A program made the position numbers and the translations under genes. The notes beneath the pieces are model-generated. The model did not search any database. It was given only the letters and a program-made list of their open reading frames with translations, and was not told the DNA's origin. From Spirochaetales bacterium (GTDB lineage: Bacteria > Spirochaetota > Spirochaetia > Sphaerochaetales > Sphaerochaetaceae), in assembly GCA_012838895.1 (NCBI GenBank), contig DUOJ01000060.1, forward strand, positions 1-46,058: a stretch of DNA of 46,058 nucleotides, read 5' to 3'. Of this stretch, positions 1,293 through 5,452 are shown one piece after another (the first letter of the stretch is position 1; each line of letters opens with the position of its first letter).

Positions 1293-1322
1293 TTGACACT
1301 CAAAAGAGCCTTATGGTAGGGT
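1293..1322 (+). promoter_or_regulatory. Promoter of the rpsF operon
   Basis: TTGACA (1293-1298), 18-base spacer, TAGGGT (1317-1322) with an extended -10 TG (1315-1316 region reads TATGG). The same TTGACA-N13-TATGGTAG arrangement precedes the tRNA-Val gene at 38073. It lies directly after the decarboxylase scrap and 55 bases before rpsF. Confidence 0.55.
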
Positions 1323-1329
1323 AAACAGA

Positions 1330-1372
1330 CCTCTTTATCCACTGTGAGTGGATCAATTAGTCCGTAAGGAGG
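1330..1372 (+). promoter_or_regulatory. Structured rpsF leader, candidate S6:S18 autoregulatory element
   Basis: Positions 1330-1337 (CCTCTTTA) pair with 1365-1372 (TAAGGAGG, the ribosome binding site) over 8 bp with one G-U. Inside is a second hairpin, TCCACT/AGTGGA (1338-1343 with 1347-1352; 3-base loop). The 3' internal loop (1353-1364) ends in CCG directly beside the sequestering stem. Known S6:S18-binding leaders of rpsF mRNAs have two stems and a conserved CCG at this side. The pairing is seen in the sequence; the protein binding is inference. Confidence 0.55.
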
Positions 1373-2482: not shown

Positions 2483-3433
2483 ATGGACCAGCAAACTGGA
2501 ACGATGATCAAGTCGGGAGTCATAGCTACCATCTTAGCCCTTGTTCTCTATAAGATGGGTGTCTCTTCCCCCTTGTTTATCTTACCGCTGCTGTTTTTTG
2601 CACCTAAGTTTAAACCAAATATCTGGGCAGTTGTTCCGGTAGCTTTGGTTTTGGCGATTTTGTTAGCCTATAACTTGATTGGTACAAGCGACCTGTGGCG
2701 CTCCTCCTCAACAATAGGGGTACTTTTGGTGGGACTCTATTTCCCCATCTCCTCCCTTGTTGGAGCCGGCATTTGGATTTTACTTGGCGAGCGGAGGATG
2801 TTGACTAAACTCCTCTCTGCCTCAGCTTTTGCAACTGCCGCTGGGTTTGGCCTTGTCTATTGGTTGAGTTTAGGGGGACCGGTCGCTACTGCTACTGGAG
2901 AGCTCTATCAGAGGACGATAGGGGTACTTATCTCTACCGTTTTCGGTGGAGAGATGCCAATGGGGCTTACGACTGAGGCAATTTTCCAAGCGATAGTCTC
3001 ACTCTTAAAGAGGGGATTTCTCCCCATGTTTGTGGGACAGTTTGGATTTTGTGCCCTCTTAAGTACCATTCTCATCCACCGAGGAGATAGCTCCTTTCAA
3101 GCTAGGATGACGAATTGGAAGCTGAGTGAGAACTTTGTGTGGCTCTTTTTGGGAGCCTGGAGTCTCGTTTTGGTTTCACTTGTGGTGAAAATCCCATTTT
3201 TCGATATCGTTGGGTGGAATGTTGCTTTGGCGACAACGCTACTCTACATGGTGCAGGGAGTCTCTATTGTAGCCATGTTTTTCAGGAGGAAAAATCCCAA
3301 TGTCACGGCGACAAGGGTTTTTGTCCTCGCCCTTATCTCGGCCTTTTTGCCCGGGATAAACTTGGTCATTTGGATCGCCCTCCCACTTCTTGGGGTGGCA
3401 GAGACATGGATCAACTTTAGAAAGAATAGTTAA
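2483..3433 (+). CDS. DUF2232 (YybS-like) integral membrane protein
   Basis: A 316-residue polytopic membrane protein with about eight hydrophobic segments, several before residue 130 and the rest spread to the C-terminus. Family recognition rests on overall pattern and place: DUF2232/YybS proteins sit between rpsR and rplI in Firmicutes and other phyla, exactly as here. No catalytic motif is visible and the function of the family is not established to my knowledge. Ribosome binding site AGGGGTT; spacing 9 bases after rpsR and 14 before rplI indicate co-transcription. Confidence 0.75.
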   Translation: MDQQTGTMIKSGVIATILALVLYKMGVSSPLFILPLLFFAPKFKPNIWAVVPVALVLAILLAYNLIGTSDLWRSSSTIGVLLVGLYFPISSLVGAGIWILLGERRMLTKLLSASAFATAAGFGLVYWLSLGGPVATATGELYQRTIGVLISTVFGGEMPMGLTTEAIFQAIVSLLKRGFLPMFVGQFGFCALLSTILIHRGDSSFQARMTNWKLSENFVWLFLGAWSLVLVSLVVKIPFFDIVGWNVALATTLLYMVQGVSIVAMFFRRKNPNVTATRVFVLALISAFLPGINLVIWIALPLLGVAETWINFRKNS

Positions 3434-4060: not shown

Positions 4061-5452
4061 ATGGCATCATCTGGAAGGATACCTCCCCATAACGATAGTG
4101 CTGAAAGGGCTGTGCTTGGCGCCATTTTAATGAGCGCCAACGCCTATAGCGAAGTTACCGAGGTGTTACGCAAAGATGATTTTTACAAACCTAATCATCA
4201 AGCCCTCTTTGATGCCATCCTCACTTTCCACCAAGATAACGTCTCTCAAGCAATCGACTTAATCACAATCACTGAACACCTAAAGGCCAAAAACCTCCTC
4301 GCCCTGTGCGGGGGCTTGGCCTATGTTGCCTCTCTAACTAGCGATGTTCCAACAACCGCCAATGCCATCTACTACGCTAAGATAGTGAAGGCTAATGCCA
4401 TGCGTCGCTCTCTCTTGGAGTTGAGTGGCAAGATGAGGGAAGATGTCTTTGATGAATCACAAGATATTGCCCTCATTATGGATGAAAATGAGCGACTAAT
4501 GAGCGACTTGCAAGCCTACAGTGGAACCTTCACCGATAGATACGTAGAGAGCTCAACTTTAATTAACGAAACAGTTCAAAATCTGGTTTACCGCGCTGAG
4601 CACGGTAATGAGAACGCAATAAAGTCTGGTTTTAGCCAACTCGATGAGATGACGGGAGGTTTCTTCCCCTCTGAATTTATTGTAATTGGGGCACGCCCCT
4701 CGGTTGGAAAGACCGCCTTTGCCATCTCTATGGCGATTAACATGGCGATTCACAACAAAATTCCGGTAGGCTTTTTCTCAGCGGAAATGACTAGCATGGC
4801 AATAATGGAGCGAATCTTAGCAGCTGAAGCGATGGTTGATGCTAAAAGAATCCGTAAAGCAATTTTACGCTCCCAAGATATGGTGAGCATTGTTGATGCA
4901 GCGAGTAGAATTTACGAGGGAAAACTCTTTATCCAAGACACCCCCAATATTAAACTCCTCGATTTGCGCTCCCAAGCAAGACGGATGAAGCGGGAACAAG
5001 ATATTAAAATCCTTTTTATCGACTATATTGGTCTTATAAACCCCGAAGCGAGCCCTGGAGTGCCCCGCCATGAGCAGGTGGCTGAGATTTCTCGTTCCCT
5101 TAAAGCCCTCTCCCGCGAACTCCAAATACCAATTGTAGCTCTCTCCCAAGTCTCACGCGATGCTGAGGGGAAGGAGCCCAACTTAGCCAATCTTCGTGAC
5201 TCAGGTTCGGTAGAGCAAGATGCTGACGTCGTTATCTTCCTCCACCGCGATCGACTCGCCGATTTAACCGACCACACCTCGGACCGCAATGGAGAGCAAG
5301 AGCGCTCCCCAATCTTTATCGAAGGGTTCCCTGTGCAAGAGACAAAAGTAATTTTAGCTAAACAGCGCCATGGTGAAACGGGAATTATTACGATGGGATT
5401 CCAAAATCAGCTGGTCCGTTTTGTTGAGATGGAGCACCACCTAGCCCCCTAA
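4061..5452 (+). CDS. dnaB: Replicative DNA helicase DnaB
   Basis: Hexameric 5'-3' helicase that unwinds DNA at the replication fork and recruits primase. 463 residues, normal length. N-terminal helical domain (RIPPHNDSAERAVLGAILM signature near residue 5-25) and a RecA-like C-terminal domain with Walker A GARPSVGKTA (about residue 210), Walker B ILFIDYIGL (about 322), and the downstream DADVVIFLHRD and KQRHGETG motifs. Last gene of the rpsF operon; its 3' end overlaps the convergent rseP gene by 12 bp, leaving no room for a terminator. No intein. Confidence 0.97.
   Translation: MASSGRIPPHNDSAERAVLGAILMSANAYSEVTEVLRKDDFYKPNHQALFDAILTFHQDNVSQAIDLITITEHLKAKNLLALCGGLAYVASLTSDVPTTANAIYYAKIVKANAMRRSLLELSGKMREDVFDESQDIALIMDENERLMSDLQAYSGTFTDRYVESSTLINETVQNLVYRAEHGNENAIKSGFSQLDEMTGGFFPSEFIVIGARPSVGKTAFAISMAINMAIHNKIPVGFFSAEMTSMAIMERILAAEAMVDAKRIRKAILRSQDMVSIVDAASRIYEGKLFIQDTPNIKLLDLRSQARRMKREQDIKILFIDYIGLINPEASPGVPRHEQVAEISRSLKALSRELQIPIVALSQVSRDAEGKEPNLANLRDSGSVEQDADVVIFLHRDRLADLTDHTSDRNGEQERSPIFIEGFPVQETKVILAKQRHGETGIITMGFQNQLVRFVEMEHHLAP

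Follow-up and report, generated by a model that had tools for sequence, protein, structure and literature searches.

A leader in front of rpsF in a Spirochaetales genome, probably of the S6:S18-binding kind and in a form found in many spirochaetes

Does the short leader in front of rpsF in the Spirochaetales draft genome GCA_012838895.1 (labelled G000) belong to the family of RNA elements through which ribosomal proteins S6 and S18 control their own operon? The question was raised by a sequence-only reading of the window, i.e., the whole stretch of 46,058 nucleotides analyzed here (contig DUOJ01000060.1, contig 13 of the draft), which proposed that the leader sequesters its own ribosome binding site, carries a CCG next to the closing stem and, if bound by S6:S18, would repress an operon including ssb and dnaB. 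Our analysis puts the probability that the element acts in cis as an S6:S18-binding leader (rpsF leader) at roughly 88%. The proposed gene content was borne out by NCBIfam matches. On the forward strand, rpsF (S6, 1377-1658; TIGR00166, 61.6 bits) is followed by ssb (1682-2131; TIGR00621), rpsR (S18, 2153-2473; TIGR00165), a gene for a hydrophobic, probably membrane protein without NCBIfam match at E ≤ 0.001 (2483-3433), rplI (L9, 3448-4053; TIGR00158) and dnaB (4061-5452; TIGR00665). Neighboring genes are separated by gaps of 7 to 23 bases, which is consistent with rpsF to dnaB forming a single operon.

By direct reading, CCTCTTTA (1330-1337) pairs with TAAGGAGG (1365-1372) through C1330-G1372, C1331-G1371, T1332-A1370, C1333-G1369, the wobble T1334·G1368, T1335-A1367, T1336-A1366 and A1337-T1365, so that the eight-base stem pairs as had been described, with one G·U. 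The second perfect hairpin reported inside it can also be read directly as six pairs between ATCCAC (1337-1342) and GTGGAT (1348-1353) around the loop TGTGA (1343-1347), a segment whose length and sequence vary among leaders. The two helices compete for A1337. Because this base pairs in the inner helix (P2) across relatives, we count seven pairs in the outer helix (P1), one fewer than originally suggested, and let T1365 end the bulge. P1 thus joins the 5′ strand CCUCUUU (1330-1336) to AAGGAGG (1366-1372), identified by sequence and alignment as the Shine-Dalgarno (SD) sequence, which therefore sits inside the helix as in the rpsF leader motif. Between the 3′ strand of P2 and that of P1 lies a 12-nt bulge, CAAUUAGUCCGU (1354-1365), that ends in CCGT and places CCG (1362-1364) against the SD strand, on the side where the sequence-only reading had it.

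To evaluate this layout in relatives, we surveyed 81 genomes, 79 of which gave an rpsF match, and read 78 upstream regions; the remaining locus, L054, has a partial rpsF and entered solely the scan of 79 loci with the covariance model described below. The 5′ strand of P1 was found 35 to 80 nt before the start codon in 69 of the 78 regions, as CCTCTTT in 68 and CCCCCTT in one. We aligned 46 of these 69 leaders with plain MAFFT (A1), omitting near-duplicates and several divergent leaders; the alignment has seven pairs in P1 and seven in P2, and RNAalifold predicts the same structure from it. Six of the seven P2 pairs covary in A1: doubly changed cells number 58, where shuffles give 15.0, and pairing extends to 98.3% of cells, compared with 45.8 to 58.0% when the strands are slid. 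A covariance model built from A1 (R1) matched 73 of the 79 loci at E ≤ 0.05, including 27 of the 33 outside its training set, a group that contains close duplicates of rows in that set; the six loci without a match at this threshold were L070, L071, L074, L075, L078 and L079. In two of these, from distant class members (L075, 450-503, genome G071, scored by R1 at 12.0 bits; L079, genome G066, without an R1 score), a P2-like hairpin, a CC before the SD and a short P1 can be made out by eye.

A second alignment (A2), with rows picked by R1 and aligned to its structure, so that its counts lean towards R1, gave the same picture for P2. Among 70 distinct rows of 74, all seven P2 pairs covary, each with at least one doubly changed row; there are 94 doubly changed cells, compared with 24.7 (sd 6.7) after shuffling, and pairing covers 98.3% of P2 cells, compared with 46.7 to 58.8% when slid. 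The plain alignment and the model-fitted one thus agree on P2 covariation. When the P2 pairs are mapped on a quick rpsF protein tree, pairs 2 to 6 switch type at least 8, 6, 7, 16 and 17 times, respectively, and on supported branches the two sides of these pairs never moved in opposite ways; in this tree test, no single P2 pair reached p < 0.05. The covariation predicted for the leader therefore holds for the inner helix and not for the outer one: none of the seven P1 pairs is doubly changed in A2, where 99.4% of P1 cells are paired, because P1 is nearly invariant. Its 5′ strand is identical in 69 of the 72 rows used for base counts (two rows of L031 omitted, all rows picked by R1), and its 3′ strand would stay conserved as the SD anyway. 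Although C would pair better, 67 of 69 rows retain the U·G pair at the fifth position of P1, and at the four P1 pairs with a G partner, C/U exchange occurs in one row only. This invariance and the retained U·G suggest that a slightly weak helix has been selected or that the strand plays a second role at the 5′ end of the transcript. The bulge shows a different kind of constraint. Its two cytosines (1362-1363 in the window) are present in all 72 aligned rpsF leaders, and the base after them is G in 43 and A in 29, so that the full CCG of the window corresponds, across relatives, to CC followed by a purine. A bulge of 12 nt, as in the window, is the commonest length (28 of 72 rows).

The Rfam model for the S6:S18 leader (RF02893), proposed as a check, did not reach its threshold. 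It aligns with 1316-1379 at 16.4 bits against a gathering score of 37 (E = 0.3), in the right register and end to end, through UCCGUAAGGAG and the AUG; at gathering scores, Rfam reported tRNA only in the whole window and nothing in the leader. Over 248 genomes of the class, searched with stricter filters, RF02893 gave a match at E ≤ 10 in 56 and none over the cut-off, so that annotation relying on it would overlook the element. In a scan of the whole draft genome, the only place listed was on another contig (C77, 20.5 bits) rather than at this leader, and Rfam alone would thus not have found the leader of the window. The model is narrow, and its consensus is nearly the sequence of E. coli itself: the E. 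coli leader scores 110.1 bits, and in a set of 14 well-known control genomes three give a match at E ≤ 10, a single one passing the cut-off. Conversely, the E. coli leader is not detected by R1 at E ≤ 10. The link across phyla therefore rests on the layout and a short shared string, and membership of the wider motif on layout, CC, gene context and bulge length.

These points of comparison are close, and the claim that the window has the layout of S6:S18-binding leaders held up in both arrangement and bulge length. In the Rfam alignment, the E. coli leader consists of P1 (GUUCCUU with AAGGAGC), P2 (GCCUCC with GGAGGC) around an inner hairpin, and the bulge UGAAUAAUCCGU next to AAGGAGC, 12 nt long as in the window. 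Both elements stand in the 5′ untranslated region of an operon with rpsF and rpsR, both hold the SD in P1, and both carry a P2, a 3′ bulge and a CC(G) just before P1, the string UCCGUAAGGAG being common to the two. They differ in the 5′ strand of P1 (CCUCUUU instead of GUUCCUU), in P2, which is short and simple in the window and holds an inner hairpin in E. coli, in the predicted transcription start of the window 1 to 2 nt before P1, in ssb standing where E. coli has priB, and in the presence of dnaB downstream. A further difference is the third base of the CCG, which is G or A in relatives. In the Chlorobi, a candidate S6:S18 leader precedes rpsF, ssbA, rpsR and rplI and is reported not to resemble the rRNA (PMC7247131).

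The ribosomal counterpart of the leader cytosines can be followed in the same genomes. E. coli 16S rRNA (rrsB) has CC at 719-720, and in 16S genes from 15 relatives the corresponding S6:S18 site reads CC followed by G or A. We considered whether the third leader base tracks that of the host's own 16S rRNA and rejected this idea, as the two were equal in 6 of the 15 genomes by hand tally (16S/leader G/G 6, G/A 4, A/G 5, A/A 0). Four genomes were left out of the tally: G054 (short 16S string not matched), G004 (an odd CCT match and no rpsF), G056 (no leader) and G071 (leader not aligned; by eye CCA against CCG in 16S). The 16S patterns had no match in most of the 81 genomes, and the 16S segment had none in 8 of 18, including the source genome. 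Independence of the third base from host 16S fits a contact that involves the two cytosines only. On the protein side, the IKRAR stretch of S18 is invariant in a four-sequence alignment that includes E. coli, and the S18 of the window keeps the residues equivalent to E. coli K60, R61, R63, Y23 and K24.

The position of the motif was next considered without reference to genes. A DNA-only pattern of the motif, run over species genomes, returned at least 117 stretches; in each of the 117 matches listed, the motif lies directly upstream of rpsF, and all 117 carry spirochaete titles; the matches listed do not prove restriction to one phylum. R1 matched 282 of 394 class genomes at E ≤ 1, the weakest of which may be chance matches, and about 247 at E ≤ 0.01 (hand count); it gave no match at E ≤ 1 in the other 112. 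In a sample of 198 genomes from the phylum, R1 matched 28 at E ≤ 0.1, and 16 of these belong to other classes. Of 20 such places examined, 13 had an rpsF match in the stretch, and among the weak matches outside the class, rpsF (E ≤ 0.001) was found in 8 of 14 examined and was absent from the other 6. In contrast to the full motif, the SD-hiding half is not specific: RCCTCTTT...AAGGAGG alone matched 64 times in 41 genomes. By hand count, 31 of these are rpsF leaders, which leaves 33 matches, no more than the 51 obtained with a reversed-pattern control. Two further places in the source genome carry this bare pattern.

We also examined the sequence upstream of the leader by stacking 68 leaders, gap-free, on CCTCTTT. 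An extended -10 element, TGgTAGGGT in the window (1314-1322), recurs at a fixed distance from this string (T-16 in 50, G-15 in 49, T-13 in 51, A-12 in 53 and T-8 in 52 of 68), and a -35 element, TTGACA (1293-1298), lies 18 nt before it, T at -36 being found in 54 of 68 leaders. A general consensus promoter scan passed over this site, as TGgTAGGGT does not satisfy its -10 rule. From this register and a purine at -1 (1329) in 67 of 68 leaders, the transcript is predicted to begin at 1328-1329, 1 to 2 nt before P1. Such a start would make nearly all of the 48-nt 5′ untranslated region structured and the SD-hiding strand the first part to be synthesized. Just 5′ of the promoter, an open reading frame at 943-1272 looks like a gene remnant, with its C-terminal residues 41-106 matching only the last ~60 positions of MtaA/CmuA-type methyltransferases. 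A further frame (30-908), starting 30 bases from the contig end, encodes a LacI/PurR-like ligand-binding regulator whose best profile matches start near position 60-70 and whose DNA-binding part was not seen.

Folding of the single sequence is no clean guide for this leader. Its z-score was -1.98 for 1330-1372, where 11 of 200 shuffles fold as well, and weakened to -1.47 (1328-1379), -0.84 (1328-1390) and -0.23 (1293-1390) in longer stretches, so that the window alone has a mildly unusual fold. In short stretches, the minimum-energy fold keeps P1 and replaces P2 by another inner hairpin, the P2 pairs having probabilities of 0.23 to 0.64 in the two shorter stretches folded. The probability that the SD is unpaired is 0.02 for 1328-1379, 0.04 when the stretch is extended to 1410 and 0.61 when extended to 1450, where P1 drops to 0.06. 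Upstream sequence that competes with P1 in some folds would stay untranscribed if the transcript starts at 1328-1329. What lifts the leader above chance is its conservation, with the 5′ strand found in most upstream regions and all listed pattern matches standing before rpsF.

How such a leader could act is suggested by the work of Babina et al. 2015 on E. coli (PMC4647458). In that study, a leader fusion is repressed fourfold at the translational level when S6 and S18 are overexpressed together, and the putative SD lies within the first stem. Changing the strand opposite the SD almost abolishes control, and mutation of the two conserved cytosines abolishes it. K60 and R63 of S18 contact C719/C720 of 16S rRNA, K60A or R63A weakens control, and the native transcript falls about 4.5-fold, as measured at rplI (PMC4647458). 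By analogy, S6 and S18 most likely shut off their own synthesis through the spirochaete leader. In this scheme, P1 pairs CCUCUUU with the SD AAGGAGG, P2 stacks on P1, and the 12-nt bulge presents CC-purine next to P1. When S6 and S18 are in excess of free 16S rRNA, the S6:S18 heterodimer would grip the leader CC through S18, these cytosines being the putative counterpart of 16S C719/C720. The bound complex would then hold P1 closed and block loading of the 30S subunit on rpsF, while plentiful rRNA would draw S6 and S18 off, allowing P1 to open and the operon to be translated. Repression could spread to ssb, rpsR, rplI and dnaB by coupling or by faster decay of untranslated mRNA. This spread is plausible because the E. 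coli transcript falls at rplI, and we infer on the same analogy that repression reaches ssb and dnaB.

Other readings of the locus were weighed against an S6:S18 leader. A leader that hides the SD could control rpsF translation without S6:S18, for example by sensing temperature as an RNA thermometer or by responding to some other ligand. The low unpaired probability of the SD in the 1328-1379 fold, where P1 covers it, suggests that hiding the SD calls for no protein. However, a thermometer would not require the CC to be invariant (72 of 72 rows) or its bulge to keep a conserved position, nor would it call for the E. coli layout or the placement before rpsF alone seen in the 117 matches listed; we consider this reading improbable. 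Chance pairing in a short leader would agree with the weak single-sequence z-scores (-0.23 to -1.98) and with the commonness of the bare RCCTCTTT...AAGGAGG pattern (33 matches away from rpsF against 51 for the reversed control), but conservation throughout the class and covariation in relatives already refute it, and we give it next to no credence.

CCTCTTT could also be mainly an initial-transcribed or promoter signal, with SD pairing secondary. It stands at a fixed distance from a conserved extended -10 element, beside the predicted start, and varies less than pairing would allow, as seen from the near absence of C/U exchange opposite G. Against this, 99.4% of cells have the string paired to the SD strand, and P2 covaries immediately beside it; in E. 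coli, control is nearly lost when the strand facing the SD is mutated (PMC4647458), and a promoter signal leaves both P2 and the CC unexplained. We regard this reading as very improbable. A related idea, which we think unlikely, keeps the S6:S18 leader and fuses it to the promoter: CCUCUUU, closely resembling the anti-Shine-Dalgarno apart from one selected G·U wobble and conserved beyond what pairing with the SD demands, would do two jobs. If true, the 5′ strand would set transcription initiation and at the same time keep the SD in a helix so weak that it opens when S6:S18 does not clamp it.

Taken together, an S6:S18-binding leader remains our preferred reading, and the element would be an established type of switch, here in a version that many spirochaetes share and that the Rfam model does not recognize. 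Matelska 2013 and Fu 2014 are reportedly the founding papers on the S6:S18 complex-binding motif, and their lists may include spirochaetes. Among the titles and abstract beginnings searched, we found none describing an rpsF leader in spirochaetes, and in the passages of PMC7160235 consulted, rpsF occurs only in the reference list. The leader would extend a well-tested ribosomal feedback switch to this group. The leaders compared suggest that the essentials are the CC pair and P1, which hardly change, whereas P2 and the third base vary. Moreover, the presence of genes for the single-strand binding protein and the replicative helicase (ssb and dnaB) behind the same leader suggests a connection, open to testing, between the supply of ribosomes and proteins of replication.

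In a search for further copies of the leader, the source genome showed a single R1 match at E ≤ 1, and some other genomes contain two to four at this threshold. G249 has two strong matches (L227, 1327-1383, reverse strand; L228, 965-1021, forward strand), each before its own rpsF operon, which most likely represent two strains in one metagenome-assembled genome. In G009, a second, weak R1-like element (L031, 445-491, reverse strand; 24.7 bits) precedes a short open reading frame, and a divergent rpsF leader follows about 60 nt downstream. The species name of a metagenome-assembled genome titled Borreliella garinii, which carries the canonical motif (L103), looks doubtful, since the small genomes of family f19 gave no R1 match. 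Finally, L054 (205-259, reverse strand, genome G036) has the leader motif at the expected place, with rpsF matched only from residue 34 and too little space after the motif for a complete gene, as would result from a deletion, a frameshift or an assembly fault.
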